Shown piece after piece: positions 6,141 to 28,855 of a stretch of DNA of 47,658 nt. Made by a program: the position numbers and the translations under genes. The stretch comes from Lachnospiraceae bacterium (GTDB lineage: Bacteria > Bacillota > Clostridia > Lachnospirales > Lachnospiraceae): assembly GCA_017416465.1 (NCBI GenBank), contig JAFQCK010000073.1:102398-150055 (forward strand), given 5' to 3'. The notes under the pieces are model-generated. The model was not told the DNA's origin and made no database searches. It worked only from the letters and a program-made list of their open reading frames with translations. Every line of letters begins with the position of its first letter. The first letter of the stretch is position 1.

Positions 6141-6232
6141 AAATTTTAATCTGTTTTTCTATTATACACTATTATTTCTTATTTATAAATAAGTATAGTT
6201 CAGTCACTACAACTCTAAACCAATATTTCAAA

Positions 6233-6258: not shown

Positions 6259-6262
6259 CACA

Positions 6263-7789: not shown

Positions 7790-7806
7790 TTTCTCCTTCC
7801 AATATT

Positions 7807-8505: not shown

Positions 8506-8633
8506 ATTAACCTCCGTTTTAAACAACAATTCAACTATCGAGTGCTGAATTGTTACTAATTTTAAAATCGTTTTGCAATTGCTAATAGTATATTATCATA
8601 AGTGTGTATCCTTTTTATATCCTTTTGAAAATA

Positions 8634-8678
8634 AAAAATACAGCTTTAGGAAAGCTAATATCCCAAAGCTGTATTTTT
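8634..8678 (-). terminator. terminator after the hybrid kinase
   Basis: AAAAATACAGCTTT (8634-8647) pairs with AAAGCTGTATTTTT (8665-8678), a 14-bp stem over a 17-nt loop. It starts right at the hybrid kinase stop codon and is A/T-rich on both sides, so it may work in both directions. Confidence 0.8.
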
Positions 8679-11683: not shown

Positions 11684-11797
11684 AAAGTTCCTCCTATATT
11701 AAAGTTTTATCATCATAATAATCCATTTCATTGTTTAATTTAAGGTAATAATTGTAGGTAATATTATTATAATAACTTTCAATAAATATCTTATATT

Positions 11798-11826
11798 ATT
11801 TTACATTTTCTATGACCGGATGTCAA
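11798..11826 (-). promoter_or_regulatory. sigma-A-type promoter of the hybrid kinase
   Basis: On the minus strand TTGACA (11821-11826) and TAAAAT (11798-11803) are 17 bp apart. Predicted transcription starts about 110 nt before the kinase start codon, leaving an AT-rich leader. Confidence 0.6.
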
Positions 11827-11909
11827 ACAAAGCATATACCTTCATCACTATTTTTTATGTATAAATTTGTGTTTCAACTTTCAAAATAAAAGTCATCGTT
11901 TTATCCCCA

Positions 11910-14515: not shown

Positions 14516-14534
14516 TAATTATCTCTTTGAGAAT
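14516..14534. other. candidate attachment-site core, distal copy
   Basis: TAATTATCTCTTTGAGAAT at 14516-14534 is identical over 19 bp to the core repeat at 16298-16316, and over 15 bp to the rpsI 3' end (28456-28470). It lies in the gap between two genes, right after the ATPase stop codon. The flanking sequence on either side does not resemble the other copies, so it may be an old, eroded end of an earlier insertion rather than a working site. Confidence 0.4.
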
Positions 14535-14566
14535 CATAAAACCTAATTTAGAGGTTTCAAAGTTCA

Positions 14567-15943
14567 TTACTTATAAATATCTTCCAAGTTTATCAATATC
14601 CTATCATCAGATTTCTCACATTCAAATCCTGACCTTGATATAAATCCATATTTGTAACATGAGATACCGGTTTTATCAACTTGCATAATCTCTTCTTTTA
14701 TCACAGATTCAATTAGTGGCTCTTTGCGAAATTTTGCCTCATAAAAAATGTAACCATTATCATCCAACGTTACTATATCAAACTCACCATTTGTTTTATT
14801 CACTGGGTCGTCATAATAATATTTTCCAATCTTTTCAATTGCATTTTTAATATTTCCTACACGATTAAGCCTTACAAGATATTGCTTGCATATTTCTTCA
14901 AAAATTTTAGGTACATATTGTGTTTCAAAATCCTCTTCAATATATTTTTTATAAAACACCTCAGAATCCATAATATTCATTCGAGAAATATTTCTAAAAA
15001 TATATTTATAATAGAATAATGACAAATTATCAGATACAAAATATCCAGTTTTCTTTTTATTATTTTCATCATTTATAGGCGCTTCTTTTTTCACTACATC
15101 CATCCTTATTAACTTATCAAGTGTATCAATAAGTGTAGGACCACTAGACACATTGGATTGATCAAGAATATCTTTATATTTAGAGTAGCCCTTTGCCAAT
15201 GCCTCAAATACTTCATTAGCATTAGTTATCTTCGATATCTCAGAATTCAAATACATAGATACTTCATTTTCCAATCTGGCTCCTGGTGAGGCTATTAATT
15301 CTATAATATTTTCTTTTACACTTTTTTTCTTATCTACAAGCCTGTTGTAATATGGAACCCCTCCGAACACGCTATACAATCTTACTTTATCCTCATTAGA
15401 AAATGTGTCATAAAATAATGCCGACTCATAATAATCCATAGGTTTCAAATCAATTATCAAATCAATCCTTCCAAATAACGGATTCTGATTTGTCAGAAGC
15501 TCCTTCATAGTGTCAACATACGAGCCACATATAATCAATTTCATCTTTGATGTATCTTTATATTTATCAACAATAGTCTGAATTATGCTATCAAGACCTT
15601 TAATATTTTCACGTAAGTAAGGATACTCATCAATCACCAATATCAAGTCTTTGGTTTCCGCTTTTCTAAAAAGAAAACTCAGCAATCCTTCCATATCATC
15701 AAATGAAGGTTTTGGAAAATCAAATGTTTCTGCAACTATTTCAGCAAGACTATCAACGTTATTACGCTCTGTAGTCTGCTTGCATTCATAATATATACTT
15801 TGCATATCTGTCTCTCTTAAAACCTGCTTAATAAGCTCGCTTTTACCTATACGTCGCCTTCCATATATAAGCGTAATCATCTGTTCATTTTTATTTATCA
15901 TATTATGCATACTTTTCTTTTGACGTTCTCTTCCATAAAACAT
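14567..15943 (-). CDS. AAA ATPase of the archaeal-type ATPase/DUF234 family
   Basis: A 458-residue P-loop ATPase. It opens with FYGRERQKKSM, then Walker A IYGRRRIGKSELIKQ near residues 27-36 and Walker B LILVIDEYPYL near 100-110, followed by the sensor segment LIICGSYVDTM. The second half (from about 250) has a winged-helix region and then a C-terminal part with GEFDIVTLDDNGYIFYEAKF, a PD-(D/E)XK-like D...ExK arrangement typical of DUF234. Such proteins are widespread, often on islands, with unsettled roles. The start at 15943 is set by GGAGG 8 nt upstream. It lies between two copies of the rpsI core repeat and may be cargo. Confidence 0.82.
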   Translation of the reverse strand: MFYGRERQKKSMHNMINKNEQMITLIYGRRRIGKSELIKQVLRETDMQSIYYECKQTTERNNVDSLAEIVAETFDFPKPSFDDMEGLLSFLFRKAETKDLILVIDEYPYLRENIKGLDSIIQTIVDKYKDTSKMKLIICGSYVDTMKELLTNQNPLFGRIDLIIDLKPMDYYESALFYDTFSNEDKVRLYSVFGGVPYYNRLVDKKKSVKENIIELIASPGARLENEVSMYLNSEISKITNANEVFEALAKGYSKYKDILDQSNVSSGPTLIDTLDKLIRMDVVKKEAPINDENNKKKTGYFVSDNLSLFYYKYIFRNISRMNIMDSEVFYKKYIEEDFETQYVPKIFEEICKQYLVRLNRVGNIKNAIEKIGKYYYDDPVNKTNGEFDIVTLDDNGYIFYEAKFRKEPLIESVIKEEIMQVDKTGISCYKYGFISRSGFECEKSDDRILINLEDIYK

Positions 15944-16055
15944 TAGCTTTTCCTCCACTTCTTAAATAATTATATGTAACTGCTCAAATCTATTCGGCGG
16001 ATACAACACAACGCGGAAATATAACATATTTTCCAATCTAACTCTGAATAATACA

Positions 16056-16123
16056 ATTATATTATACCATTTTCAATTCGTCAACTTTAATTCGGTTTCA
16101 ACCGAATCGAAGTGTACCGAATT
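16056..16123 (-). promoter_or_regulatory. promoter with upstream palindromic operator for the ATPase gene
   Basis: Minus strand: -35 TTGACG (16079-16084), 17-bp spacer, -10 TATAAT (16056-16061). Just upstream of the -35 lies a perfect palindrome ATTCGGTT-TC-AACCGAAT (16090-16107), and 8 bp further a third half-site ACCGAATT (16116-16123). The position fits a transcription factor site, perhaps for an activator. The region 15944-16415 otherwise holds the terminator at 16252 and the left end at 16298, and no gene. Confidence 0.6.
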
Positions 16124-16251
16124 AAAATCACTAAATCAGCTCTCTTTTTCGACTAATACGTACCATAACTCTGTTTAAATTGCATTATTTCATCTATATA
16201 TCATAAGATTATTACTTATATGTTATGTTCTTACAATATTTTTATACAACA

Positions 16252-16280
16252 ACAACCCAGAACGAATTGTTCTGGGTTGT
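16252..16280 (-). terminator. terminator hairpin, copy 1 (former rpsI terminator)
   Basis: ACAACCCAGAAC (16252-16263), loop GAATT, GTTCTGGGTTGT (16269-16280): a perfect 12-bp stem. It lies 17 bp beyond the core repeat at 16298, on the side where rpsI transcription would arrive if the island were absent. A nearly identical copy lies at 17820-17848. The distance from the core, TAA included, fits the original rpsI terminator. Confidence 0.75.
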
Positions 16281-16297
16281 AATAAATCGTATTGAAA

Positions 16298-16373
16298 TAA
16301 TTATCTCTTTGAGAATGGTCTGACAACTGGAAAAGCTCGATTATAAGGGATTTATCGGTAGAATGTTGCATAC
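16298..16373. other. left end of integrated element A: core repeat plus subterminal motifs
   Basis: Core TAATTATCTCTTTGA (16298-16312) equals the rpsI 3' end at 28456-28470. After it come GAAAAGCTC (16330-16338), AAGGGATT and TGTTGCATAC (16364-16373). The same motifs at the same spacing from the core occur at 17866-17941, and GGAAAAGC also occurs in inverted orientation near the right end (28418-28425). I read them as integrase-binding sites of related elements. Confidence 0.7.
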
Positions 16374-16415
16374 TTGTTTTATTTCAAGGACTGTTGTGGT
16401 CGTTCCAAGACTCCC

Positions 16416-17675
16416 CTACACATACCAACATGGTATCTGTAAAACATTTTCCCTTAACATTCCGGGCATAGAGCACATACATACAACCGCTCCCATTCCA
16501 CGTTTCTTTTCTGACAAATCATCCAAGACTCTAAATGCAGCCGTCATATCCGCAGTAACATTAGCATTTAATTTAATTTCAAGCGGATACAATATGCCAT
16601 TTTCCTCGATAATAAAGTCTATTTCCGCCTCTTCCTGAACAATATCACCATTCTTCTTTTTTCTAATTTTATCCTTTCCTCTATAATATGAAACAAAATA
16701 TTTATAGTCCAATCCCCTATTAGAATAGCTCTTTAAGATTTCGGATATCACAAAAGTTTCAAATATTTCTCCACACATCGCACCATTTGCAAGAGTATCA
16801 GGGGTAAGCCATCTTGTCAAATATGCCACCAGTCCCGTATCTCTGAAATACATTTTAGGTGTCTTAATAACTCTTTTTAATGCACTATTGGCAAAAGGTT
16901 CCAAAATATATACGATTCCCGACGCTTCAAGAATAGATATCCAGTTCTTGATTGTGTTAGCATCTTTTCCAACTTCCTCTGCGATGTTAGCATAATTAAG
17001 CATCTGACCTGTTCTTGCAGCACATGCAACCATAAATCTTCTAAATGCATCTAAATCCTGAACTGCTGCTAATTCACGCACATCTCTTTCCAAATATGTC
17101 TTAATATAGCTGGAAAAATACATATTCCAATCCATGTTTTGATCCTGAATCTCAGGATATCCTCCCCTATGAATGATTTTCCAAATATTATCCGGTTTTT
17201 TAACACTAATATTTCTTTCTTGTATATATTCAAGTGTTGGCAAAAAAGGAGTTTTAAATTCATCATTCATAATTTCTCTGAGCGACAACGGAGTCATTTC
17301 AATAATAGCAATTCGTCCTGCTAAGGAATCCGATACCATATCCATTAGCTTAAATGGCTGTGAACCCGATAGAAAGAACAAACCTTTATCATTACTCTTA
17401 TCACATGACATTTTAATGTATCTAAATAACGACGGAACATATTGTATCTCATCTAAAAATACTGGTGGTTCATTAAGCATCATAAACATATCCGGATTGT
17501 TTTTTGCCTGCTCCTCTGCAAAAGGATCATCAAATGATATTTCCTTAATTTCCGGATACAGGTGTTTTAATAAAGTGGATTTTCCTGTTTGTCTTGCGCC
17601 CGTCACTAATACTGCCTTAAAATTATTTGCTGATTCTTTTACTATATCTTCTATTGCTCTATGTATGTACTCCAT
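16416..17675 (-). CDS. AAA ATPase with DUF4143 C-terminal domain
   Basis: A 419-residue ATPase of the AAA_14/DUF4143 type. Walker A is GARQTGKSTLLKHL near residues 26-39, Walker B is PPVFLDEIQYVPSLFRYIK, and the sensor segment is LFFLSGSQPFKLM. The DUF4143 part shows ETFVISEILKSY and EAEIDFIIEENGILYPLEIKL, a nuclease-like D...ExK arrangement. These proteins are common in gut Firmicutes and Bacteroidetes as single genes of unsettled function. The start at 17675 has AGGAG 5 nt upstream. It is the only gene between two copies of the rpsI core, so it appears to be the sole cargo of a small integrase-less element. It has its own promoter at 17723-17751. Confidence 0.88.
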   Translation of the reverse strand: MEYIHRAIEDIVKESANNFKAVLVTGARQTGKSTLLKHLYPEIKEISFDDPFAEEQAKNNPDMFMMLNEPPVFLDEIQYVPSLFRYIKMSCDKSNDKGLFFLSGSQPFKLMDMVSDSLAGRIAIIEMTPLSLREIMNDEFKTPFLPTLEYIQERNISVKKPDNIWKIIHRGGYPEIQDQNMDWNMYFSSYIKTYLERDVRELAAVQDLDAFRRFMVACAARTGQMLNYANIAEEVGKDANTIKNWISILEASGIVYILEPFANSALKRVIKTPKMYFRDTGLVAYLTRWLTPDTLANGAMCGEIFETFVISEILKSYSNRGLDYKYFVSYYRGKDKIRKKKNGDIVQEEAEIDFIIEENGILYPLEIKLNANVTADMTAAFRVLDDLSEKKRGMGAVVCMCSMPGMLRENVLQIPCWYV

Positions 17676-17722
17676 AAGCTCTCCTTTTCGACCATTCTGT
17701 ATTATCATTCCGTTTTAGTCGC

Positions 17723-17751
17723 ATTATATCATTAATTCTCCATCATTTCAA
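17723..17751 (-). promoter_or_regulatory. promoter of the DUF4143 ATPase gene
   Basis: Minus strand TTGAAA (17746-17751), 17-bp spacer, TATAAT (17723-17728). Transcription would start about 40 nt before the start codon. The gap 17676-18028 otherwise holds the terminator copy and the left end of element B. Confidence 0.7.
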
Positions 17752-17819
17752 TATATATTGTGGTATTTTGATTATTATTTATTCATGCTAAAATTATGTT
17801 TCAGACACTTAACACAAAA

Positions 17820-17848
17820 ACAACCCAGAACGAATTGTCCTGGGTTGT
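17820..17848 (-). terminator. terminator hairpin, copy 2 (former rpsI terminator)
   Basis: Same hairpin as at 16252-16280 with one base change (a G-U pair on the minus strand), followed on that strand by TTTTTGTG. The stretch from the hairpin through the core repeat is nearly identical in both copies for about 60 bp. If element B were excised, this hairpin would again follow rpsI by 17 bp. Confidence 0.8.
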
Positions 17849-17865
17849 AATAAATCGTATTGAAA

Positions 17866-17941
17866 TAATTATCTCTTTGTTAACGCTTGGATAGCTTGAA
17901 AAGCCCAAAACAAGGGATTCCTTACATCAAATGTTGCATAC
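17866..17941. other. left end of integrated element B: core repeat plus subterminal motifs
   Basis: Core TAATTATCTCTTTG (17866-17879), then GAAAAGCCC (17898-17906), AAGGGATT and TGTTGCATAC (17932-17941). The offsets from the core (32 and 66 bp) equal those in the copy at 16298. Together with the core in rpsI at 28456 it delimits a 10.6-kb element. Confidence 0.75.
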
Positions 17942-18028
17942 GTGTTTTACATGGTAGACTGCTCAGGACGTCTCACGACTTCTCTGTACTTACAATCCGC
18001 ATATAGCGTTAATCGAAAGGAGCTACTT

Positions 18029-18271
18029 ATGACTAAAATAATTTTTGCAATGTATAACCCTGAAACCGATTGCGTTGAGGTTAGCCTCAACGATGAAATC
18101 CATGTCTCTTTTAACTGTCAAAAATGCAATGCCTCCGTTCGTCTGAACGAGCCTTCTGATATTGCTTATCTTACAAGGCTTGCCAGAGAAGAACCGGGAC
18201 TGTATGCAAAATTGGCATCCAGAAATGGTGGTTTGCAAGGGTATGTTGAGGCGATGGGGGAGTTTAATTAG
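18029..18271 (+). CDS. small DUF6061-like protein
   Basis: An 80-residue protein, the only plus-strand gene in the left part of the island. It begins MTKIIFAMYNPETDCVEVSL and later has EEPGLYAKL and GYVEAMGEF, a pattern I recall from short mobile-element proteins annotated DUF6061 (AMYNxETxCVEV, then EPxxYAxL, then a Y-x-x-A ending). That assignment is from memory. Two cysteines (CQKC) are present in the middle. AAAGGAGC precedes the start by 6 nt, which decides it against the longer frame from 17942. It ends 11 bp from the stop of the convergent HerA gene. Being next to the left end, it may be an element-maintenance gene. Confidence 0.65.
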   Translation: MTKIIFAMYNPETDCVEVSLNDEIHVSFNCQKCNASVRLNEPSDIAYLTRLAREEPGLYAKLASRNGGLQGYVEAMGEFN

Positions 18272-18282
18272 GTGCTCCTCCT

Positions 18283-20034
18283 TTATTTTTTCATCCATTC
18301 TTTTTTAATAGATGCTATATCCAAATCCTTCCACTGTTCTTTCCAAACTTCAAAATATGGAATATCGTTTGATGATGGCTCTAATTCACACGGAAGAACT
18401 TGCACAACCGAAGGAATAACAACTGAATCTCCAATAAGCAATCCCTCTCCTGCTTTTAATGCTGGCATTTTATCTATCAAATTCCCCATAGTATCAGGCA
18501 ACAATTTTTTAACATAATTCTGATCATTAGGATTTGTCAATCTAAGTGCAACAAAATTATTACATTGTGAAAAAATTGTCTCTGAAATTTCCGACGGTCT
18601 CTGACTAGCAAGCAACAGCGAAATTCCATACTTTCTTCCTTCTTTTGCAATACGTTCAATTGACTCCCTTGAAGCTCTATATTTTGCCAATTCACTTTTC
18701 GGTACATATTTATGTGCCTCTTCATACACAAGTAACAATGGAACATCGTTATTCATTATTTGTTCTGAATCTAACATACTTCTAATTTTCTTGTAATAAT
18801 ATCCATACTCAAACAAAATTCGTGAAATCAAAGAAACTGTAATACTAAGAATATCAAATGGTATTCCACTCAAATCTATTATAGTAACATTTCTTTTTTC
18901 ATCTGAATAGCTTATTAATTGCTCCAATGTTTTTTCAAATGTTATTTCTTTAGATTTTTTACCAAATAGAAATTCTAACCTCTTGTCGTTAATTTTATTT
19001 TCCAATCTATCTATAAAATTAATCAATCCACCATTATTTGTGCCACTTGCCGAACTACCTGTATATTTTACATTTTCCAAAAACAAATCTTTAGCATCGT
19101 TTACATCAAATATTTTACTTTCATTTTTTGCATTTTGATAAGGAATTGAATTATCTTTATCTTTCTTCTCATTATTTCTATTTGATATATATGTTAAAAT
19201 TTCATCAACATCAAAGAAAAATGGCGAATCAAAATGTATTTTTTTCCTATCTTCATCTGCTCCTTGAAAATGCATTTTTCTATTGTTTACTATAGCTTCT
19301 TTTAACACACTTCGTTGTCTATGATCATTAGCCTCCGTATCAATAAACAACTCCATCAACTCATCACTATTTAGCATCCAATAAGGTAAAATCAAATTAT
19401 TTATATCTATCAAATTAGCATCCGGAAAAGCACTTTTATATTCTGAATGAATATCAAAAATAATAATATGCGTGTTATTTAACCCGCTAAAATCGGATTC
19501 TTTCTCCTTAATTGCTGTTTGTATAATTTTAGCTACAGTATGTGATTTTCCCGAACCCGTAGAACCTACTATTGCAATATGTTTACTAAAAAACTTATTA
19601 CCATCAACTGGTACACTTATGTTATGATTCGTGGATAATACAGAAAAACTAAACTGTTTTTGTTTACTTATGGAGTGTTCAAATATGCTTTTTATCTCTT
19701 CTTCTCTTGCTGGTAATACCTCTTTCGGTGGAATTGTTAATGTATCTCCACCTCTTTCAAATCTTTCACCTCTTATAATTCCAAGCGGTGCTGCTTCTAT
19801 GATATACTTTTTCTTCACTATATTATCCAAAACAGTCGGCACTTCTATCATAAAATTCTCAATAACCGCAATCAATACGGCATTATCGTTATCCGCTATT
19901 CTTAAGTATGAACCTACCTTTAACTTTTCTTCAGCAATTTGAAAATCATCTAAATCATCCACTGATATTTTCACCTTGTCGGGATATACGGCAATCACTT
20001 CTGCATTAATCTTTTCCTCTATGCTCTGATTCAT
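18283..20034 (-). CDS. HerA-family hexameric ATPase/translocase
   Basis: A 583-residue HerA/FtsK-superfamily ATPase. It has an N-terminal HAS-type beta-barrel (about 1-70), Walker A GSTGSGKSHTV at 157-167, FDIHSEYK as in HerA proteins, Walker B LLLVYEEAHKYVPK, a candidate arginine finger in ERIAKEGRKYG, and ASQRPSEIS as sensor segment. In archaea HerA works with NurA in DNA end resection; in bacteria stand-alone HerA proteins pair with nucleases in anti-phage systems (SIR2-HerA, DUF4297-HerA). Here the gene follows a DUF4297 nuclease gene by 15 bp, with AGGAGG before the start, so the two almost certainly form a complex. It is the last gene of the defence operon. Confidence 0.9.
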   Translation of the reverse strand: MNQSIEEKINAEVIAVYPDKVKISVDDLDDFQIAEEKLKVGSYLRIADNDNAVLIAVIENFMIEVPTVLDNIVKKKYIIEAAPLGIIRGERFERGGDTLTIPPKEVLPAREEEIKSIFEHSISKQKQFSFSVLSTNHNISVPVDGNKFFSKHIAIVGSTGSGKSHTVAKIIQTAIKEKESDFSGLNNTHIIIFDIHSEYKSAFPDANLIDINNLILPYWMLNSDELMELFIDTEANDHRQRSVLKEAIVNNRKMHFQGADEDRKKIHFDSPFFFDVDEILTYISNRNNEKKDKDNSIPYQNAKNESKIFDVNDAKDLFLENVKYTGSSASGTNNGGLINFIDRLENKINDKRLEFLFGKKSKEITFEKTLEQLISYSDEKRNVTIIDLSGIPFDILSITVSLISRILFEYGYYYKKIRSMLDSEQIMNNDVPLLLVYEEAHKYVPKSELAKYRASRESIERIAKEGRKYGISLLLASQRPSEISETIFSQCNNFVALRLTNPNDQNYVKKLLPDTMGNLIDKMPALKAGEGLLIGDSVVIPSVVQVLPCELEPSSNDIPYFEVWKEQWKDLDIASIKKEWMKK

Positions 20035-20049
20035 TTTTGACTTACCTCC

Positions 20050-21255
20050 TCACACAATCATTCCAACATCCTTTGTGCTCTTTATTGGAATCTTGATATT
20101 ACTATATTGATCATTTTGCCAAAACGGAGCATCTATATAAAACTGATATATTTCCTTTACTCCATTAACATTCTTTACTAATTCCTCCAAATACTGTGGC
20201 TCATTCACAATTTTTAGTTGTATGCCTGTATGAAAGTTTGTTTTCTTCAACATCATATCATTATTGTATTTTGCTCCCAAGTAACTATATCCGTCACAAA
20301 TATTAACTCCACTATTACTAATGATATCCTTTATTGAAATCAAACGCGCAGAGTCAATCCCATGTATGTAAACAAACGGACAAAATGGTTTACTTGTTCT
20401 TTGCGATATCTTCGACCACTTTTTTGCAATCACTAGTAATAAATTAGCCACCTCTTGATCTGTAGTCATTCCATCATATTGTATCAAAAAAAATCTTTCG
20501 TATGGTGATACATTCAATTTTGCAAAATATTGTTCCTTTATATCCTTACAATACTGCTTAATGCCCTTAAATTCAATATACCAACTATCGAACAGCATGC
20601 TTTTATGATTGATTAGTTCTAAAAACATATGTTTACTCAACACTCGATTTTTTACATCTTGTTCTGTTGAGATATTTTTCAATATTCTAAGAGCATTATT
20701 ATAGTAATAATATTCTGCTTCAAACATATCACATTTAAAAGTTTTGCATATTTGAGATAATATCTGTTGTTCCTGTTCCTCATAACTTTTCGCATTAATA
20801 TCAACTACAAGTAAATTCAAAAACTCTTCTAGTTGACTATCGTTCAAATTAAGTTCCGTATACAACACATGCTTGACTTTATTATGTGTATATGTACAGA
20901 TATTAGATTTCAAAAAATCTATATCTAATTTATCAGGATATTTTTCATGCCCACTCTCATAATGACCATAGAGCATATATGAAATAAGCTTTCTAGAATC
21001 TTTTTTTCTTAATGCATAATCCTTTAACATAAGTCTAATGGGAGATGCAATAATAGAGTGATTATATTCTGTTTTAGCATAATATTTGCACTGAACAGCT
21101 TTTAGTATGCCATCTTCACTTATGTCTACATCTTCAACACCTTCTATAGTTACAGTATCAGTGTCTTTTGTCAAATTAAGAAGTTGTAGAATATAATAAT
21201 CAAACTGATAATAATATCCTGTAATTGTATCTATCGCATCTCTTCCTCTTGACAT
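20050..21255 (-). CDS. DUF4297-type dsDNA nuclease, partner of HerA
   Basis: A 401-residue protein. The N-terminal domain fits DUF4297/Cap4-like PD-(D/E)XK nucleases: GYYYQFDYYIL at 13-23, then E38-G-V-E41-D-V-D44, and the active-site Q55-C-K57 in AVQCKYY. The roughly 300-residue remainder is mostly helical with no motif that I know and may carry the HerA-binding or sensing part. DUF4297-HerA pairs are described as anti-phage complexes in which HerA controls a DNA nuclease. The gene starts 13 bp after the second methyltransferase stop, with AGGAG 6 nt before the start. It is therefore part of the same transcript as the modification genes, which is the unusual point. Confidence 0.8.
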   Translation of the reverse strand: MSRGRDAIDTITGYYYQFDYYILQLLNLTKDTDTVTIEGVEDVDISEDGILKAVQCKYYAKTEYNHSIIASPIRLMLKDYALRKKDSRKLISYMLYGHYESGHEKYPDKLDIDFLKSNICTYTHNKVKHVLYTELNLNDSQLEEFLNLLVVDINAKSYEEQEQQILSQICKTFKCDMFEAEYYYYNNALRILKNISTEQDVKNRVLSKHMFLELINHKSMLFDSWYIEFKGIKQYCKDIKEQYFAKLNVSPYERFFLIQYDGMTTDQEVANLLLVIAKKWSKISQRTSKPFCPFVYIHGIDSARLISIKDIISNSGVNICDGYSYLGAKYNNDMMLKKTNFHTGIQLKIVNEPQYLEELVKNVNGVKEIYQFYIDAPFWQNDQYSNIKIPIKSTKDVGMIV

Positions 21256-21268
21256 AAATCTCCTTTTC

Positions 21269-22267
21269 TCAAATCGCTTCTTTTTGTTCCGCTGTTTCCA
21301 CCATCTCTAAATACTTTTTAATCGAATTAGATATATGCCAAAACATTACAGGTGGAATCGCATTTCCAATTTGTCTATATGCATCTGTTTCACTTCCTGC
21401 AAATTCAAACTCATCTGGGAATGACTGTATACGTGCTGCTTCTAATGGTGTGAACCGTCTGTACAATTCCTTATCTGGATCTACTAATAATACCGGATCC
21501 CTTGAATTTAAACTCACCTTCGCCAAATGACTTGTAACCGTCAAACAAGGTTTATCCAAATCTTGGTATAATCCTCTTTTCATATTATTTTTGGCATTTT
21601 TCATCCCTTGAACTGCTCTTTCAGAAAAATAGTATTTTTCTTGTTCAATCGCAAGTTCCGGAACCGCTACCGATAATGGAACCCAGTTGTTTTTATTCGT
21701 TTCCTTAGGAAAACTATATTCCATAATATCATTCAAATCATTTCTGATACCAACAATAATTATTCTTTCTCTTCTTTGTGGCACACCATAATCTGCTGCA
21801 TTAAAAAGCTTTGTATATGTTGTATAACCCACTTCCTCAAAAGCCTTTATGATTCGTTCAAATATTTGCCCTTTATGTAATGTCATCATTCCTTTTACAT
21901 TTTCAGCAATGAATACTTTTGGTTGTTTATCCTTTACAACTCGTACCATCTGCTTATACAAATTTGCTCTGTCATCAAAAGGATCTTTTGTCGGATTAAC
22001 AGTACTGAATGACTGACAAGGAAACCCTCCTACTACAATATCGCATTCAGGAATTTCCTCGGAACCAGTTTCGCATATATCTTTACAAACAACTTTCCCA
22101 CACTCAAAGTTTTTCATATGTGAATTTAGTGCTTTTTGATCAATATCTGTTGCGTACACTAATTCAAAAGGAAGTCTATTATACTTTTTATTATTAAACA
22201 TAAAATTTCCCACAATTCCTTGATCGGCTCCGCCGCATCCTGAGAATAATGAAACTACTTTATACAT
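21269..22267 (-). CDS. DNA (cytosine-5) methyltransferase 1
   Basis: A 332-residue Dcm-type enzyme with the family motifs in order: I FSGCGGADQG (8-17), IV GGFPCQSFS with catalytic Cys84, VI AENVKGM (121-127), VIII QRRERIIIVG, and IX-X RIQSFPDEFEF with QIGNAIPP. The target-recognition region lies between VIII and IX (about 180-270). It transfers methyl from SAM to C5 of cytosine in a specific site. Its start overlaps the end of the DUF3883 gene by 8 bp. It differs clearly from the other methyltransferase in this operon, as expected if each modifies one strand of an asymmetric site. Confidence 0.93.
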   Translation of the reverse strand: MYKVVSLFSGCGGADQGIVGNFMFNNKKYNRLPFELVYATDIDQKALNSHMKNFECGKVVCKDICETGSEEIPECDIVVGGFPCQSFSTVNPTKDPFDDRANLYKQMVRVVKDKQPKVFIAENVKGMMTLHKGQIFERIIKAFEEVGYTTYTKLFNAADYGVPQRRERIIIVGIRNDLNDIMEYSFPKETNKNNWVPLSVAVPELAIEQEKYYFSERAVQGMKNAKNNMKRGLYQDLDKPCLTVTSHLAKVSLNSRDPVLLVDPDKELYRRFTPLEAARIQSFPDEFEFAGSETDAYRQIGNAIPPVMFWHISNSIKKYLEMVETAEQKEAI

Positions 22268-23672
22268 TGTTTTTAATCTCCTCTATAACTATCTGATCAA
22301 TTGCATCTTTACCAAAGTCAATTCTGTATGTTAATGGAACAATATCAATTTTCTTTTCCATCTGCTTCTGATGTATATTATTAATCACATACATTAGTAT
22401 TCGACCTCTAACAAAATAAACTCTGTAAATGCAATAGAATTCACCATGTTGTTGTGCTGCGATCCATTCGTTTCTTGTTATATTAAGCGTATCCATCCAA
22501 TAAGCATCACTCAGATTTGGCTCAGTAACTCTCTTAGTGGATTTTACCTCAATATACTTTGCAAAATCTGCTTTATCACCTTCTTCAGCCACCACTGACT
22601 GAATATCATAACCCAATCCTTTTGTCTTACCTAATGCTAACACTCTGTTTACCAATCGAGGATTAAATTTGAATACTCTATCTTTTTCGTATTCAAATAC
22701 AAAAGCTTCGCCCTCATCACCAATTTCAACAGTTGTTTGACCACTAGTCTCTTTTTTCTTTTTGGGTAATTCATCAGTAACACCTAAGGCACTTGCCGTT
22801 GTTTCAAATTTCTGAACCTTATCACTCAATTTACCGAAATAAGCAGTCCACTCCAGTTCGAATTGTTTACGACCCTCCACTGTTGACAAATCAAATGAAT
22901 AAACATCAAACTCTGGAGTTTTATTCCAATCCGACGCAAATATTTGAATTGCATCACTTTCATTCTGATTAAGCCAAACTTCACCAGTCCCATTGGTATA
23001 AATAAGATTAGCCAATTCTAAATAATTAATTTGTTCATTAATGTGTTGATAATTATAGGATGACGCCTTTCCTTCTGCTTCAATCTTTCTTACAACACCA
23101 TCTTTTCTATCCTTTTCAATAGCTTCCATAACCTCTTCTGGAACTGCAATTCCTTGAAGTACATCCAATGAATTTAGAATATAATATCCTATCTCCTTTT
23201 TGTTTAGCACTAAATGCTTGGCTGCTGCCAATTGTAATACTCTTAATACAAAAGCGTTGGATCTGATAGAAATTTTATTATCTAACAATGGCTGAAATGT
23301 CTGAGGCTTTTGCATTCCATTCGGAAACTGCATTTTATAGCATAAATCCTTAAAAAATGCAGGCTGATCATTATCTTTCAGAAATTTCTTTGTTCTTTCC
23401 GATGCATATACATAGCCATTTTCTTCTACATAATACATTCCAAATAACTTTCCAGCAATTTCAGTTCTATGATTATCCAGTGTCTTCTTTATTCTTTTAT
23501 CTGCTGATAAATATAGTGCTAACAACTCGTTAAATTTCTGAGAAAACTCTTCTACTTCACATGGTGTAATATCATCTATTACTTTTGCGTACGCCGGTAA
23601 TAAATCATCTATTTCTTTTTGAGATTTTCCCCTTATAATTATACATCTGTACTGATTTAATCGATTATACAC
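22260..23672 (-). CDS. DUF3883 PD-(D/E)XK protein, probable restriction endonuclease
   Basis: A 470-residue protein. The N-terminal 300 residues are helical, with a winged-helix-like stretch (FFKDLCYKMQFPNGMQKP, about 107-124) that could read DNA. The C-terminal DUF3883 domain (about 318-440) shows E322, GLGYDIQS with D356, and IEVKST with E375 and K377: the D...ExK active site of PD-(D/E)XK nucleases. It sits between two cytosine methyltransferase genes, 4 bp after the first and overlapping the second by 8 bp, exactly where the endonuclease of a two-methyltransferase restriction system would be. Its role is inferred; DUF3883 also occurs in other defence proteins. Confidence 0.72.
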   Translation of the reverse strand: MYNRLNQYRCIIIRGKSQKEIDDLLPAYAKVIDDITPCEVEEFSQKFNELLALYLSADKRIKKTLDNHRTEIAGKLFGMYYVEENGYVYASERTKKFLKDNDQPAFFKDLCYKMQFPNGMQKPQTFQPLLDNKISIRSNAFVLRVLQLAAAKHLVLNKKEIGYYILNSLDVLQGIAVPEEVMEAIEKDRKDGVVRKIEAEGKASSYNYQHINEQINYLELANLIYTNGTGEVWLNQNESDAIQIFASDWNKTPEFDVYSFDLSTVEGRKQFELEWTAYFGKLSDKVQKFETTASALGVTDELPKKKKETSGQTTVEIGDEGEAFVFEYEKDRVFKFNPRLVNRVLALGKTKGLGYDIQSVVAEEGDKADFAKYIEVKSTKRVTEPNLSDAYWMDTLNITRNEWIAAQQHGEFYCIYRVYFVRGRILMYVINNIHQKQMEKKIDIVPLTYRIDFGKDAIDQIVIEEIKNNV

Positions 23673-23676
23673 AAAA

Positions 23677-24771
23677 TTACCTTCTTTCTATCACTTCAAT
23701 AACTTGTTTCGCAATAGCTTCCGCCATTAAAGGTGGTACTGCATTTCCAACTTGCTTCAACTGGCTAGTCTTAATTCCGATAAATTCAAATACATCTGGA
23801 AACGACTGTATTCTTGCCGACTCTCTTACTGTAGGTACTCTATTTTCTTTATAGTGGAAATGATGATTATGTCCTGTATCAATTGTGAAACACGGTTTTT
23901 CACTATTCATTCTTGTCCACGCTATGTTTACTTTTCTTGTACTTTGCAATTCAACAGGTAAATCTTTATAATTTCCTCCATCCGGCACCATTGCTATTAT
24001 CTGCTTCGTCTGCTCTTTATGAATTGTAATAGAGTGATTCTTAATCATTGAACTTCCAATTCTCATTTTTCTCTGATAATCATTAATTGCCGACAGACTA
24101 TATTCTATATTTTCTCCTAATGATACATCATCTGGAACAAAATCCAAGTCAGAAATAGCATCCTTACAGGTTACTACATCCTTTAATCCCACACCATGAG
24201 TAGGTTCTGGAAATGCAAATTCAACATTTTCATTAAATATCTTTTCGTTGATTCCAACAAAAAATACTCTCTTTCGTTGTTGTGGAACACCATAATCATC
24301 TGACGATAATTGTTGAACCTTAACCCTATATCCAATAGCAGAAAAGTCACTTAACACCTCTTCTTTTACCTTTCCACCAAACAATCTTATCAATCCGGGC
24401 ACATTTTCCATAACAAATACTTTAGGCTGAATTTGTTCAACAAGACTAACAAACGATTTATACAATTTATTCCTTGGATCATCTATCATTCTTTTTCCTG
24501 AAAGAGAAAAACCCTGACATGGTGGTCCACCTATTATTACATCTATTTCGCCTTCCTTACATCCTGCCTTTTTCATAATAGTTTCAGCATCTACAAGTGT
24601 TATGTCTTCATTAATAACACTAGCCTCTGGAAAATTATGTTTGTATGTAGTAGTTGCATCTTTCCACATATCTATACCTAAAGCCATTTTGAATCCAGCT
24701 TGCTTGAATCCATATGAAAATCCACCACAGCCACAAAACAAATCTATTGCAATCAATTTATTATCCTTCAT
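23677..24771 (-). CDS. DNA (cytosine-5) methyltransferase 2
   Basis: A 364-residue Dcm-type enzyme: motif I IDLFCGCGGFSYGF (9-22), IV GGPPCQGFSLSG with catalytic Cys85, VI MENVPGL, VIII QQRKRVFFVGI, IX-X RIQSFPDVFEF with QVGNAVPP. The start at 24771 (GGAA about 10 nt upstream) puts motif I at the usual distance from the N-terminus and overlaps the upstream HTH gene by 11 bp; the frame stays open to 24840 but that extension is basic and unlike the family. Motif IV (PPCQGFS) and the recognition region differ from the first methyltransferase, so the two are not a recent duplication. Confidence 0.93.
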   Translation of the reverse strand: MKDNKLIAIDLFCGCGGFSYGFKQAGFKMALGIDMWKDATTTYKHNFPEASVINEDITLVDAETIMKKAGCKEGEIDVIIGGPPCQGFSLSGKRMIDDPRNKLYKSFVSLVEQIQPKVFVMENVPGLIRLFGGKVKEEVLSDFSAIGYRVKVQQLSSDDYGVPQQRKRVFFVGINEKIFNENVEFAFPEPTHGVGLKDVVTCKDAISDLDFVPDDVSLGENIEYSLSAINDYQRKMRIGSSMIKNHSITIHKEQTKQIIAMVPDGGNYKDLPVELQSTRKVNIAWTRMNSEKPCFTIDTGHNHHFHYKENRVPTVRESARIQSFPDVFEFIGIKTSQLKQVGNAVPPLMAEAIAKQVIEVIERR

Positions 24772-24946
24772 TGTTTTTACATTCCTTTTTTCTATTATCT
24801 TCTGGTTTCTGCGCGTCATCCGGTATCGCCCAATTTTCACCTAATTTGAACACACCTTCAATTCTGTCTTGTGCACACAAAATCTGTACTCTTCTTTGTG
24901 AAATATTCCATTTTTCAGCCGCTTGGCTTGCAGTTATATATCCCAT
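24761..24946 (-). CDS. small HTH protein, possible controller of the defence operon
   Basis: A 61-residue DNA-binding protein with an excisionase/MerR-like HTH: YITASQAAEKWNISQRRVQI (3-22), then a wing with GVFKLGENWAIPDDAQKP. Short clostridial proteins of this kind are common next to defence and mobile genes. The start at 24946 has AGAGG 8 nt upstream. It is the first gene of the six-gene operon and lies directly downstream of a promoter with a palindrome over its -35 box, so it may repress or time the operon, as C-proteins do in restriction systems. C-proteins are usually of the Xre type, which this is not. Confidence 0.78.
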   Translation of the reverse strand: MGYITASQAAEKWNISQRRVQILCAQDRIEGVFKLGENWAIPDDAQKPEDNRKKECKNNEG

Positions 24947-24968
24947 ACACATCACCTCTCACCCTTAC

Positions 24969-25012
24969 ATTATATTCGATGGGGCGAACAATATCAAATG
25001 GTATTTTTGTTC
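24969..25012 (-). promoter_or_regulatory. promoter and operator-like dyad of the defence operon
   Basis: Minus strand -35 TTGATA (24992-24997), 17-bp spacer, -10 TATAAT (24969-24974), giving a leader of only about 15 nt. An imperfect dyad runs from GAACAATATC (24986-24995) to GTATTTTTGTTC (25001-25012), with GAAC and GTTC at its ends, and covers the -35 box. A bound protein would block RNA polymerase. The HTH protein encoded next is the obvious candidate. Confidence 0.68.
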
Positions 25013-25077
25013 ATATGTCAATTATACTGCGCATCATTTTCGAACACAAGTTCTTTTTTTTTGTTTTTCCAAAATTT

Positions 25078-25110
25078 TATGGAGAGATAATTATATTCTA
25101 TCTCTCCATA
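25078..25110 (-). terminator. terminator after the HNH-like gene
   Basis: TATGGAGAGATA (25078-25089) pairs with TATCTCTCCATA (25099-25110), a perfect 12-bp stem. On the minus strand it is followed by AAAATTTTGG and then a long T/A stretch. It separates the HNH-like gene from the defence operon promoter. Confidence 0.85.
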
Positions 25111-25126
25111 CTATATTCATGTTCTC

Positions 25127-25900
25127 CTATTTTTTATCTTTTGGCAATGCTTTAAACTGCAACGGCATCGGTAATGTATCGCTTGTTCTCTCCAAATACA
25201 TCAACCCCCATTGCATATTATACCCTTTACCATATTCAGCTTCAAAAAAGCGCATTATGCTCGCTCCATATTCTATAGGATGTTCTGGTGTAAGATTCAA
25301 AATAAAACCAAAAGGATATGCACCTAAATCAGACACTACCATAGTCTCAAATCCTATATTTGTTTTGTACAAAACCGTACATGGTCCAATCATTAATTGT
25401 CCAACATTAGCTGGTGTCAAATATATACGCAAGTCAAACAGAGTCGTATCTACTTCGTTACTTTCCTTTTCAAGCAACAACTTATCAAATCCTAGGCGTT
25501 TTACTTCTTCTATCGGTAACAAACTACAAAACATCGTTATTACTTGCTTGACAAAAGCCAGCGCAGGAAAATTATTCGATGAAAATCCTAATATATCTCC
25601 ATGCCCTAAGCTTTCCCTATTATGCAAAATTCGAGCCACATCTTTTGCCACATCACTATATTGCGGAACATACCATGAACCAGTTATATTATTGCATTTT
25701 TCACAAAGTGAAAACTTTCCCATACCTTGTTGTCGGCATATATATCTTGATTTTTCTCCTTTGTATCTTTTGACTACATCATCACCTGTATATATTATAG
25801 CTTTATTACTATTAAGCGCATTTTCTGGTGGAATATGTTCGTAAGACAATTTTCTATAACAACCACAAATATGACAATATCCTATTTCCTTTTTTCCCAT
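25127..25900 (-). CDS. HNH-like zinc-binding protein, possible endonuclease
   Basis: A 257-residue protein. The N-terminal 71 residues carry C9-x2-C12, then E21-H22-I-P-P and later C66-x2-C69-N70-N71, a zinc knuckle around an EH...N pair as in HNH/beta-beta-alpha-metal nucleases. An additional C55 lies before the second knuckle. The remaining 185 residues show no motif that I recognise. The start at 25900 has AGGAG 8 nt upstream; the frame remains open to 25969 without such a site. It lies between the relaxase remnant and the defence operon with its own terminator, so it is a separate cargo gene, perhaps a solitary defence effector. Its promoter would lie inside the relaxase gene. Confidence 0.65.
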   Translation of the reverse strand: MGKKEIGYCHICGCYRKLSYEHIPPENALNSNKAIIYTGDDVVKRYKGEKSRYICRQQGMGKFSLCEKCNNITGSWYVPQYSDVAKDVARILHNRESLGHGDILGFSSNNFPALAFVKQVITMFCSLLPIEEVKRLGFDKLLLEKESNEVDTTLFDLRIYLTPANVGQLMIGPCTVLYKTNIGFETMVVSDLGAYPFGFILNLTPEHPIEYGASIMRFFEAEYGKGYNMQWGLMYLERTSDTLPMPLQFKALPKDKK

Positions 25901-25943
25901 TTGTCTATCTCCTAACTTTTTCATAATTATAACATGATTCTTA

Positions 25944-27227
25944 TTATTTGACACTTGTATGAAAACCACTACAGTTTCTATTATCTGTAGTGATTTTCAT
26001 AGAGTTAATTAAATTACCTTCTAAAGCCACCCCTAACTTTCTCAACTCAACCACCTGTCCGATACTCTCCAGAAACCTTTCCAGCAGATTTCTTCCATCT
26101 ACCACAAACTGTTTCATGAAATCATATGCCTTATTCAGTGTTTCCCGAAATTTAGAGTTTTCAGCCTTTAATTGCTCATTTTCATACATAACATCTATGA
26201 GTTTCTCTCTCAAAGCTTCATTGCCACCGGAGCCACAAGCCATTTCATATACCTGTTCTGCAATCTCCGCTTTTCTCTCCAGTTTCGTTGCCTTTTCCTC
26301 CAAATCCACCAGAGTATCACTTTGCGTTTTGATATAAGCCTCGATTCTGTCGGCTCGCTCATTAGCCTCTTTTACTCGTTCATCAGCTTCCTCATAATCC
26401 ATCTGCTTAACCGCTACTCGCATGGATAAAGTGTCATACTCTTGCACAAGCTGTTCCTTTTCACGCTCCAACTGCTCATTCTCCTGCTGCTTTTCGTCAG
26501 CCTGTTCCTTCAATTCGTCGTAACGAATTTCCTCTTTTAACACCTTATACTCCATAACCGATAAATCGTGATTGCGACCTTTTGACTTTTCTCTTATCTG
26601 TTCTCCAAGGACAATTCTCGCTCTCTCATTTGCGAAAGCTCTTAATTTGTCCTGAAGAACTATCGAAAGCACATTTTTGGTAAATACCTTTCGTTTGGAC
26701 ACCTGCTTGGACATTCCCTTTTTGTAATCGGTTCCTACTGGAACACCTACTACATGCATATGAGGACTGTCCTCATCCATATGAACTACCGCATTGGCTA
26801 CCACAAACTGTGGAAGCCGATATTGCAACTCCGCCAAAATCGTTCTGTAGATTTGCCTCATAAAAACTTTGTTTTCCAAATGCTCCTGCCAATAGTCTCT
26901 GTCTCCTACTTGAATGATAATCTCCACCGCCATATCCTGTTCCTTATTGGCTACATGCTCAAAATAGTCTTCAATCTTACGATCTGCTCTGGTTTGATTT
27001 TCATTGTAGACCTTTAAAGCTTCATCAAATTCCTGATGATAAACTGCTTTTACATCCTGAACAAGATTGTCTGTTCCATATACCAGAAAAATATTATAAT
27101 TATCGGCGCTATATTCTTCTGATTTGTATTTTCTTAAGTTGTGCTTTGCCACCCCGGCAAGCTTCGACTTAGATGTTATTGCACTTTTCTTATTGCTCAC
27201 ATGAGCTGTAAATGATATTCCTTCCAT
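25944..27227 (-). CDS. MobV-type relaxase (plasmid mobilisation protein), probably 5'-damaged
   Basis: A 427-residue relaxase of the MobV (Pre/Mob) family, which nicks and carries the transferred strand. Visible are the N-terminal ISFTAHVSNKKSAI and GVAKHNLRKY segments and the metal-binding three-His motif NAVVHMDEDSPHMHVVGVP at about residues 165-183. A long Glu/Lys-rich coiled coil follows (about 240-390). The natural start seems to be MEGISF at 27227, but no ribosome binding site precedes it: the sequence changes abruptly there to recombinase coding sequence on the other strand. The frame is intact, yet translation and transcription signals appear lost. Confidence 0.82.
   Translation of the reverse strand: MEGISFTAHVSNKKSAITSKSKLAGVAKHNLRKYKSEEYSADNYNIFLVYGTDNLVQDVKAVYHQEFDEALKVYNENQTRADRKIEDYFEHVANKEQDMAVEIIIQVGDRDYWQEHLENKVFMRQIYRTILAELQYRLPQFVVANAVVHMDEDSPHMHVVGVPVGTDYKKGMSKQVSKRKVFTKNVLSIVLQDKLRAFANERARIVLGEQIREKSKGRNHDLSVMEYKVLKEEIRYDELKEQADEKQQENEQLEREKEQLVQEYDTLSMRVAVKQMDYEEADERVKEANERADRIEAYIKTQSDTLVDLEEKATKLERKAEIAEQVYEMACGSGGNEALREKLIDVMYENEQLKAENSKFRETLNKAYDFMKQFVVDGRNLLERFLESIGQVVELRKLGVALEGNLINSMKITTDNRNCSGFHTSVK
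25961..25998. repeat. inverted repeat over the 3' end of the relaxase gene
   Basis: GAAAACCACTACAG (25961-25974) and CTGTAGTGATTTTC (25985-25998) form a stem with one mismatch that lies inside the last codons of the relaxase frame. Such hairpins normally follow a stop codon, so the reading frame may run through a former terminator after loss of the original stop. Confidence 0.6.
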
Positions 27228-28057
27228 ACACTGTATATGAGGAATGGTCAAAACGCAAGTACCCAACTGTATCAGAATCCAATGTAAAAGGCTACACAGC
27301 CGCTTATAAGACATGTAGCAGTCTATATCATAAGGTGTTCAAAGATTTAAAGCTTGTGGATTTACAGACAGTCATTGATACCTGTGGTAAGAATTATCCT
27401 ACCTTAAGGAAAATCAAGGTACTGTTCAACCAGCTTTATGATTTTGCTATCAAGAATGATATTTGCAATAAGGATTATTCCACCTTTGTAGATGTTGTTC
27501 AATATAAGGACCGCAATTCTAATAAGTATGACCGAAACAAATTCGAGAAGGAAGAAATTGAACGGATATGGGAGCAGAAAGATGATAAGTATTATCAAAT
27601 CATATTGATGCTATTGTATAACGGAGTAAGAATTTCAGAATTCTTGGATTTGAAAAAGGAAAATGTCCATCTGGACGAACAATACTTTGATGTAATTAGC
27701 AGTAAAACCGAGAATGGAATCCGAAAGGTTCCTATCGCAGACAAGGTCTTACCTTACTACAAAGCTTGGTTTGAAGATAATCTGGAATGCGAGTATCTTA
27801 TCCATACACCGGATGGCAAGCACTTCCAATACCGAAATTACTATGACAGCTACTTCCATCCACTGATGGAACAACTTAAGATTGACCGCACACCACACTG
27901 CTGCAGACACACATGTATTTCCATGTTAGCAGAAGCCGGTGTCGATCAAACGATTATCAAGAAGATTGTGGGGCACTCCGGTGCAATGACTTTAACCGAG
28001 AAAGTATATACCCACTTTGATGTTAAGGAGCTTGTAAATGCAATCAACAAAATTTAA
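27212..28057 (+). CDS. tyrosine recombinase/integrase, N-terminally truncated
   Basis: The catalytic domain is complete: R140 in YNGVRISEFLDL, K165 in SSKTENG, H229-x2-R232 in PHCCRHTC, H255 in VGHSG and nucleophile Y266 in KVYTHFD. The core-binding domain (about 10-95) is present, but the recognisable family sequence begins only at VYEEWSKRKYP, eight codons in, and the N-terminal arm-binding domain of 50-60 residues expected in this type is missing. The first codons are the antisense of the relaxase start, and no ribosome binding site precedes the ATG at 27212. It reads toward the rpsI attachment site 400 bp away, as expected for the element integrase. It is probably not functional as it stands. 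Confidence 0.8.
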   Translation: MIFLPYTVYEEWSKRKYPTVSESNVKGYTAAYKTCSSLYHKVFKDLKLVDLQTVIDTCGKNYPTLRKIKVLFNQLYDFAIKNDICNKDYSTFVDVVQYKDRNSNKYDRNKFEKEEIERIWEQKDDKYYQIILMLLYNGVRISEFLDLKKENVHLDEQYFDVISSKTENGIRKVPIADKVLPYYKAWFEDNLECEYLIHTPDGKHFQYRNYYDSYFHPLMEQLKIDRTPHCCRHTCISMLAEAGVDQTIIKKIVGHSGAMTLTEKVYTHFDVKELVNAINKI

Positions 28058-28069
28058 AGGAGCGTTTGT

Positions 28070-28285
28070 ATGACAAATCCTGATGTAATAAAACAATTAG
28101 ATGCCTTATGTGACTTATACAAGCAACGATGGGGAAAAGATGTTGATTACACAACTCTCCCTAAAGGTATCACGCAAGAAAAGTTAGTTGATGTATTAAA
28201 ACGAATTGTAGATACCGGCGAAAGTATTTTAGTCGGCTATAATAAACTTTATATTACAACTAATAAAAAGGACACTTTCCAGTAA
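28070..28285 (+). CDS. small hypothetical protein next to the integrase
   Basis: A 71-residue protein, 12 bp after the recombinase on the same strand, with AAAGGAG 7 nt before its start. It has a helical N-terminus (NPDVIKQLDALCDLYKQRWG), a YTTLPKGITQEKLVDVLKRI segment and a beta-like GESILVGYNKLYI. I do not recognise a family. A strong hairpin overlaps the stop codon. Its position between integrase and attachment site is often occupied by a small recombination accessory gene, but no DNA-binding motif proves this. Confidence 0.6.
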   Translation: MTNPDVIKQLDALCDLYKQRWGKDVDYTTLPKGITQEKLVDVLKRIVDTGESILVGYNKLYITTNKKDTFQ

Positions 28286-28306
28286 TTCCTTACTGAAAAA
28301 TGTCCT
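28269..28306 (-). terminator. substitute terminator for the rpsI transcript, from the element end
   Basis: AGGACACTTTCCAGTAA (28269-28285) pairs with TTACTGAAAAATGTCCT (28290-28306) with two mismatches over a TTCC loop. On the minus strand the stem is followed by TTTTTATTAG. It is about 150 bp downstream of the rpsI stop codon and would end the ribosomal transcript before it enters the element. Confidence 0.75.
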
Positions 28307-28403
28307 ATACATATCATTGATATTCGTGTTGCATACCGTTTGAAATCCAACACATCTGACAACTTTCCACAACCTCTTGTAACCAAAGTTTTTCTTCGAA
28401 AAA

Positions 28404-28470
28404 CTTGATAAAATCGGGCTTTTCCTGTTTCCCAATAATTTTCTCAAAAAATCGAGTAATTATCTCTTTG
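28404..28470. other. right end of the island: attachment core in the rpsI 3' end plus subterminal motif
   Basis: The core TAATTATCTCTTTGA (28456-28470) covers the last codons and stop of rpsI, so the reading frame stays intact. Inward lies GGAAAAGCCCGATTTTATC on the minus strand (28407-28425), which resembles, in opposite orientation, GGAAAAGCTCGATTATAAG at the left end (16329-16347). TGTTGCATAC, present at both left ends, also occurs at 28328-28337. Confidence 0.75.
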
Positions 28471-28855
28471 AAAACTGTGGTGCACGACGTGCAGCTTTGA
28501 GACCGTATTTCTTTCTTTCTTTCATTCTTGGATCTCTTGTTAAGAAACCTGCTTTCTTAAGTACTGGTCTGAATTCTCCATCAACTTTTAATAAAGCTCT
28601 TGAGATACCATGTCTGATAGCACCAGCCTGTCCTGTGTAACCACCACCATGAACGTTTACTAAAACGTCATATTTACCAAGTGTCTCTGTTGCTACTAAA
28701 GGCTGTCTAACGATAACCTTTAATGTTTCAAGACCAAAGTAATCATCTATTGTTCTTTTATTTATAATAATGTCGCCTTTTCCCGGCACTAAATATACTC
28801 TAGCAATACTCTTTTTTCTTCTACCTGTTCCGTATAATTTTTCTGATTTAGCCAT
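28460..28855 (-). CDS. rpsI: 30S ribosomal protein S9
   Basis: A 131-residue S9. It has the family start [18 protein letters not shown], the [20 protein letters not shown] segment and the C-terminal [17 protein letters not shown], whose tail reaches the P-site tRNA. It is the second gene of the rplM-rpsI pair, 29 bp after rplM. The last five codons are the integration target of the neighbouring island; the C-terminus is unchanged, so the integration was in frame and silent. Its own terminator has been displaced to 17820 or 16252. Confidence 0.97.

Follow-up and report, generated by a model that had tools for sequence, protein, structure and literature searches.

The window analysed here is a stretch of 47,658 nucleotides from Lachnospiraceae bacterium (GenBank assembly GCA_017416465.1, contig JAFQCK010000073.1). 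Six open reading frames (ORFs) form a row on its minus strand, from 24946 to 18283, with spacings between neighbours of -11 to +15 bp. In the direction of reading, they encode a small helix-turn-helix (HTH) protein, a first C5-cytosine DNA methyltransferase (M1), a restriction endonuclease (R), a second C5-cytosine DNA methyltransferase (M2) and the two subunits of a DUF4297-HerA pair. A first-pass annotation, made without database searches, had described a tightly packed restriction unit with two C5-methyltransferases joined to a DUF4297-HerA unit, behind one promoter and without an internal terminator. The ORF check of the window confirms the packing, the family matches confirm the two units, and a scan of 17850-25400 agrees with the statements on promoter and terminator.

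The M1 gene starts at ATG 24771 and overlaps the HTH gene by 11 bp; a longer frame starts with GTG at 24840, and an in-frame GTG for the HTH gene is found at 24955. The R gene starts with GTG at 23672 and overlaps the M2 gene by 8 bp. Gaps of 13 bp and 15 bp separate M2 from DUF4297 and DUF4297 from HerA, respectively. No terminator-like site was found across 17850-25400. The promoter-like sequence TTGATA-17-TATAAT (24969..24997, minus strand) agrees with the consensus at 11 of 12 positions. Other promoter-like matches number 35, versus a shuffle mean of 37.9. This is no excess, so that these matches speak neither for nor against an internal promoter. From the spacing of the genes, the row is predicted to be co-transcribed.

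The restriction cassette and its promoter element

The HTH gene (24761..24946, minus strand; 61 residues) is the likely regulator of the cassette. Its Pfam matches, HTH_17 and HTH_59, are weak and below cut-off. M1 (23677..24771, minus strand; 364 residues) and M2 (21269..22267, minus strand; 332 residues) match PF00145 with E-values of 5.1e-77 and 3.3e-74. They carry the stretches PPCQG, MENV and QQRKR (M1) and FPCQS, AENV and QRRER (M2), which we take to be conserved C5-methyltransferase motifs.

R (22260..23672, minus strand) is a BpuJI-type restriction endonuclease. A full-length match to PF11564 (BpuJI_N, 2.4e-109) places the BpuJI recognition domain at residues 2-276, and phmmer aligns residues 2-282 with the BpuJI structures 2vla and 5hlt (3e-80). 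At the C-terminal side, residues 321-422 match NOV_C (PF13020, 4e-13), a PD-(D/E)XK-like nuclease domain. Residues D356, E375 and K377, located in GYDIQS and YIEVKS, are invariant across 12 relatives, and nuclease activity is predicted. The PADLOC model REase_II also matches R over almost its full length (489 bits). The protein had been labelled "DUF3883 nuclease-like" in the first-pass annotation. DUF3883 being presumably the older name of NOV_C, this label is right for the C-terminal domain and misses the nature of the whole protein, a BpuJI-type endonuclease composed of BpuJI_N and NOV_C.

Because R is a BpuJI-type enzyme, genes 1 to 4 can be viewed as a type IIS-like restriction cassette that includes an HTH gene of its own. 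The presence of two C5-methyltransferases and one type IIS endonuclease would fit an asymmetric site. The order M1-R-M2 is found in 11 of the 12 cassettes examined. The exception, L113, has M2 after R and an M1-like part that is apparently fused ahead of R, as judged from the reading frame. BpuJI recognizes CCCGT and cuts outside this site; the R protein of the window may have the same specificity. Depletion of CCCGT is 0.85 in 216 kb of the window's own genome versus 0.92 in control loci, which is no signal of avoidance.

The spacer of the promoter-like site holds TTGTTCGCCCCATCGAATATAAT, which contains the inverted repeat TTCG-N6-CGAA. This suggests a candidate operator. A homologue of the HTH gene is located directly 5' of M1 in seven other cassettes (L036, L113 as a fragment, L114, L115, L194, L195 and L196). 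The element TT[GA]TTCG[CT]CCC...GAATATA[AC]T lies ahead of the HTH gene in all seven cassettes with a full HTH gene (the window, L036, L114, L115 and L194-L196) and was not seen in the four cassettes without this HTH gene (L025, L111, L112 and L116). HTH gene and promoter element also accompany cassettes that have no DUF4297-HerA pair (L114, L115, L194, L195 and L196). Since both are conserved with the cassettes, they are parts of the restriction cassette, and the pair has presumably come under their control.

In five of the seven HTH-bearing cassettes (L036, L114, L115, L194 and L196), CCCGT occurs inside the promoter element, which hints at methylation-sensitive expression in those five. It is absent from the L195 element, and the window element reads CCCAT. 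A methylation sensor made of CCCGT in the promoter spacer is therefore ruled out as an explanation of the window locus, where the TTCG-N6-CGAA repeat points to an operator instead.

The DUF4297-HerA pair

The DUF4297 nuclease subunit (20050..21255, minus strand; 401 residues) scores 478 bits with NF042945 (cut-off 300). The HerA hexameric ATPase subunit (18283..20034, minus strand; 583 residues) scores 897 bits with NF042944 (cut-off 850) and has its Walker A motif, GSTGSGKS, at residue 157. Both subunits are closest to chains of the solved entries 8xau-8xay, with 410 bits for DUF4297 against 8xav and 749 bits for HerA against 8xau. Residues D42, Q55 and K57 of the window DUF4297 align with D40, Q53 and K55 of the solved protein, which are the residues mutated in published work (PMC11291478). 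By these alignments, the window pair belongs to the solved DUF4297-HerA subfamily, with its active-site residues kept. A relative forms a complex of about 1 MDa that causes abortive DNA degradation (PMC11291478). By analogy with this same-family pair, the pair of the window is expected to be active.

Cassette and pair mostly occur apart

BpuJI_N was searched in three overlapping genome samples, drawn from the order, the family and the phylum, with the window's genome in each. Matches over cut-off were obtained in 9 of 392, 8 of 397 and 2 of 398 genomes, respectively. Ten strong cassettes besides that of the window were read with their neighbours (L025, L111-L116 and L194-L196). Weak matches (L107-L110, L192 and L193) were left out of the counts; L117 and L118, which stem from the weak matches L107 and L108, have other methyltransferases. 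Neither DUF4297 nor HerA was seen beside any of the ten cassettes. Eight of them have flanks of about 6 kb or more on each side; L115 ends shortly after the Vsr gene and L194 about 1 kb after M2. A tblastn search of seven of the ten, with E up to 1, gave no remnant of the pair. The closest cassette, L112 (M1 82%, R 87% and M2 90% identical), is pairless and lies 5.3 kb downstream of rpsI.

A DUF4297 search in a one-genome-per-species collection returned 73 loci. HerA is present as well at 65 of these, 55 of which have at least 4 kb upstream. The cassette was found at a single one of the 65 loci (L036) and is missing from the other 64. Within the order, DUF4297 exceeds the cut-off in 3 of 392 genomes; one is that of the window, and in the other two the cassette does not accompany the pair. 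Viral scans gave no match for R and three loci for DUF4297, all with the pair alone and without a restriction homologue; phage records searched for DUF4297 gave no match. On plasmids, R has only two distant matches and DUF4297 is found in 19 records. In the eight of these 19 DUF4297 regions that were read, no restriction homologue was found with our own seeds, and no plasmid record covers 80% of the whole row in BLASTN. In the L017 plasmid, IS66 is inserted between DUF4297 and HerA. In three Roseobacter-group plasmids (L019, L020 and L023), DUF4297-HerA is located inside a longer conserved row, in the order TerB-domain protein, ATPase, DEAD/DEAH helicase, DUF4297, HerA, DNA repair exonuclease and AAA ATPase.

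The cassette and the pair of the window are not one obligate system. The first-pass annotation had taken them for one regulated system. The shared row and promoter-like site speak for this, and the counts above speak against a necessary single system. It had also considered that the two units might be regularly found apart and abut here only: they are indeed regularly apart (none of ten cassettes with the pair, 64 of 65 pairs without the cassette), but L036 provides a second case of abutment.

A version of the single system had been proposed in which methylation by M1 and M2 would identify self DNA to DUF4297-HerA. Location in the same operon is the only point in its favour. E. coli tolerates a same-family pair expressed by itself, which confers defence without methyltransferases and degrades host and phage DNA alike (PMC11291478). 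For this reason, and because 64 of the 65 pair loci lack these methyltransferases, the idea was dropped as main explanation, and we hold it to be very improbable.

A second row built of different parts

The DUF4297 search gave one further case of this gene order, L036 from Lachnospiraceae bacterium COE1. Its row reads HTH-M1-R-M2-Vsr-DUF4297-HerA, with 2.1 kb, mostly N, before HerA. The L036 HTH protein is 74% identical to that of the window. The R proteins are only 24% identical, so that the two cassettes are of different subtypes. The R and M2 trees assign the window and L036 to separate subtypes (100/100), beside the pairless cassettes L112 and L115, respectively. Support is 100/100 (R) and 93/92 (M2) for the window with L112, and 92/99 (R) and 86/99 (M2) for L036 with L115. 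A label for presence of the pair needs two changes on these trees. The DUF4297 proteins of the window and L036 are not sisters in the DUF4297 tree either, and a single ancestral six-gene unit is not supported. As the same order is made in L036 from non-sister parts, the join would have arisen at least twice, or a single time, followed by many losses or by a cassette swap.

Region 2856-7038 of L036 matches L115 at 83%, and regions 6972-8256 and 10354-12157 match L030 at 95% and 93%. The pairs of L036 and L030 are 96% identical. The 3'-terminal 19 codons of a Vsr gene (4795-4870) directly precede DUF4297 in L030, with the same spacing as in L036. The L030 pair therefore also once followed a Vsr gene, or took the tail along. 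L030 has the look of a relic of a restriction-Vsr-pair row, and a type I system is located downstream of its HerA gene.

The carrier element at rpsI

The row is carried by an element of 10.6 kb (17866..28471) flanked by copies of the rpsI 3'-end sequence TAATTATCTCTTTGA. Copies are found at 28457, the rpsI 3' end, and at 17866 (14 of 15 bases); exact copies are also present at 16298 and 14516. With up to three mismatches, the search gave six matches versus 0.49 expected. Between 17866 and 28457, the carrier contains a tyrosine integrase (27212..28057, plus strand; PF00589, 9e-22), a MobV-like relaxase (25944..27314, minus strand; PF01076, 7.7e-17; NF041497, 35.6 bits, below the cut-off of 100), one gene with no assigned function and the six-gene row. 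On the basis of integrase, relaxase and target-end direct repeats, the carrier is assigned as an integrative and mobilizable element at rpsI.

Positions 25127-25969 of the window encode a 280-residue protein whose CxxC, EH and CxxCN residues look HNH-like by eye. Relatives of this protein are found on lactic-acid-bacterial and other plasmids and, in L044, directly after HerA (27%). Beside the carrier, at 14516-17866, are two att-bounded segments with one ATPase gene in each, AAA_14+DUF4143 (PADLOC candidate PDC-S01) and ATPase_2+DUF234 (PDC-S27). The stacking gives the impression that defence genes are gathered one by one at rpsI. In L112, the region downstream of rpsI (2335-11558) contains ATPase genes, an AbiEi-like gene (by eye) and the BpuJI-type cassette closest to that of the window.

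This gathering of defence-like genes at rpsI, in the window and in L112, is what would be seen if the cassette and the pair were mere neighbours in a defence island, brought together by chance insertion, separately expressed and forming a row without functional meaning. The ten cassettes without the pair and the eight plasmid and three viral pairs without a restriction homologue are of the same tenor. The 13- and 15-bp spacings and the failure to find a terminator argue against chance, as does L036, which repeats order, regulator and promoter element from different parts. We regard a chance arrangement as quite improbable.

Other restriction systems beside the pair

In L064 (3252-10849) and L071 (845-8421), DUF4297 is directly preceded by a type IIG enzyme and its methyltransferase, all on one strand. 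The same IIG family is found in divergent orientation in L079 (119-7740) and L082 (3223-10843). Between the three DUF4297 lineages concerned, members of this IIG family are 44-51% identical. In L062, a type III methyltransferase directly follows HerA and a Res gene lies upstream; this methyltransferase is also present in L063. Overall, 12 of the 65 loci have a restriction homologue somewhere in the flanks; in 8, its distance from the pair is at most 200 bp. With our own seeds, none was found within the flanks of the other 53. The label for restriction within 200 bp needs seven changes on the 64-row DUF4297 tree, the window being counted.

These neighbourhoods bring to mind EcoprrI-PrrC. In that system, a restriction enzyme encoded in genetic linkage with PrrC keeps the latter silent until a phage anti-restriction peptide releases it (PMC2610378). 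Similarly, restriction proteins or their activity could restrain DUF4297-HerA, and a phage block of restriction would then free the pair and kill the cell. Adjacency of pairs to three kinds of restriction system (BpuJI-type, IIG and III), with the seven changes on the tree, is in line with this, and the Vsr remnant of L030 resembles the hsdR relic kept by one rloC gene (PMC2610378). However, PrrC is described as invariably linked to restriction (PMC2610378), whereas 53 of 65 DUF4297-HerA loci have no restriction gene found in their flanks. In addition, the abutting restriction systems share no common protein as silencer, so that a silencer would have to serve unrelated systems, and the pair alone is tolerated and defends in E. 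coli (PMC11291478). Such a guard role is doubtful. Also unlikely is a more general form, in which DUF4297-HerA would be an add-on kill switch independently joined to BpuJI-type, IIG and type III systems, restrained or unexpressed while restriction works, and released by phage anti-restriction or by demethylated operon DNA signalling failure.

Discussion

We consider it probable that the window holds two autonomous defences under one regulated cassette promoter, as composite cargo of a mobilizable element integrated at rpsI. A complete DUF4297-HerA pair would have been joined behind the last gene of a complete BpuJI-type restriction-modification cassette. Both units would be expressed from the HTH-regulated promoter of the cassette, possibly with autoregulation by the HTH protein. 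The two C5-methyltransferases may serve the two strands of an asymmetric site. In a first layer, the methyltransferases would shield the host and the endonuclease would cut unmethylated incoming DNA. In a second layer, DUF4297-HerA would provide abortive DNA destruction as a backup, probably acting after restriction. The benefit of the join would be shared regulation and shared mobility rather than protein contact. The two-layer option of the first-pass annotation, restriction and then abortive destruction, thus survives as the best reading, with layers that would act independently.

Several points weigh against this view. Only two such rows are known, the window and L036, and the L036 row has a stretch of about 2.1 kb, mostly unresolved N, between DUF4297 and HerA. 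Adjacency by itself proves little, since restriction genes are frequently neighbours of other defence genes. As a control, we used 40 Abi_2 loci, taken from matches in 95 of 392 genomes of one order, which have a restriction homologue within 200 bp in no case and within the flanks in two. The excess beside pairs is modest (8 of 62 pair loci versus 0 of 40, p 0.015; 6 of 60 with near-copies merged, p 0.042), and the comparison favours the test set, because DUF4297 loci supplied part of the seeds and a single order supplied the control. A Pfam scan of immediate neighbours covered 118 proteins from 62 loci and 74 proteins from the 40 control loci, the first 25 families being listed for each. Finally, recurrent joining could mean a functional link tighter than co-regulation.

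According to PMC11291478, it is unknown both what triggers DUF4297-HerA and how it is negatively controlled. Rows with the pair behind a regulated cassette provide a concrete hypothesis for when DUF4297-HerA is made. Near-identical relatives with and without each half (L036, L115 and L030; the window and L112) permit clean comparisons.

Each half of the row is already known. In agreement with the first-pass annotation, which knew of no described system with this gene set, we found no description of the combination in the open-licence literature, subscription papers and preprints being outside the search. The word "methyltransferase" is absent from the main text of PMC11291478.

BpuJI (PDB 2vla and 5hlt; PF11564) shares its recognition domain with the R protein of the window. 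The comparison is at the level of the enzyme; in the window, R is found in a predicted operon with a small HTH gene and, further on, DUF4297-HerA. The studied DUF4297-HerA system (PMC11291478; 8xau-8xay) has the same adjacent subunits and catalytic residues as the window pair. It is presented there as a two-gene system, whereas the window pair follows a restriction cassette, whose promoter presumably drives it. The carrier shares its rpsI association and a MOBV relaxase with the streptococcal IMESag-rpsI, as described in PMC5090054.

The link of an abortive effector to restriction is also seen in EcoprrI-PrrC (PMC2610378). The effector there is an anticodon nuclease in physical association with a type Ic enzyme, and the linkage of the two is invariable; no such dependence is seen for the window pair. 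Backup effectors have been described for BREX too (PMC12839542). The RptR-DarTG2 island is the nearest published design (PMC12255303). Like the window row, it has a small regulator first, one promoter, a restriction system and an abortive module. It differs by its regulator, a repressor, by its type I restriction system and by the embedded position of DarTG2, the module of the window being appended. In addition to PrrC and the RptR-DarTG2 island, the window row is a further example of the attachment of an abortive module to a restriction operon.

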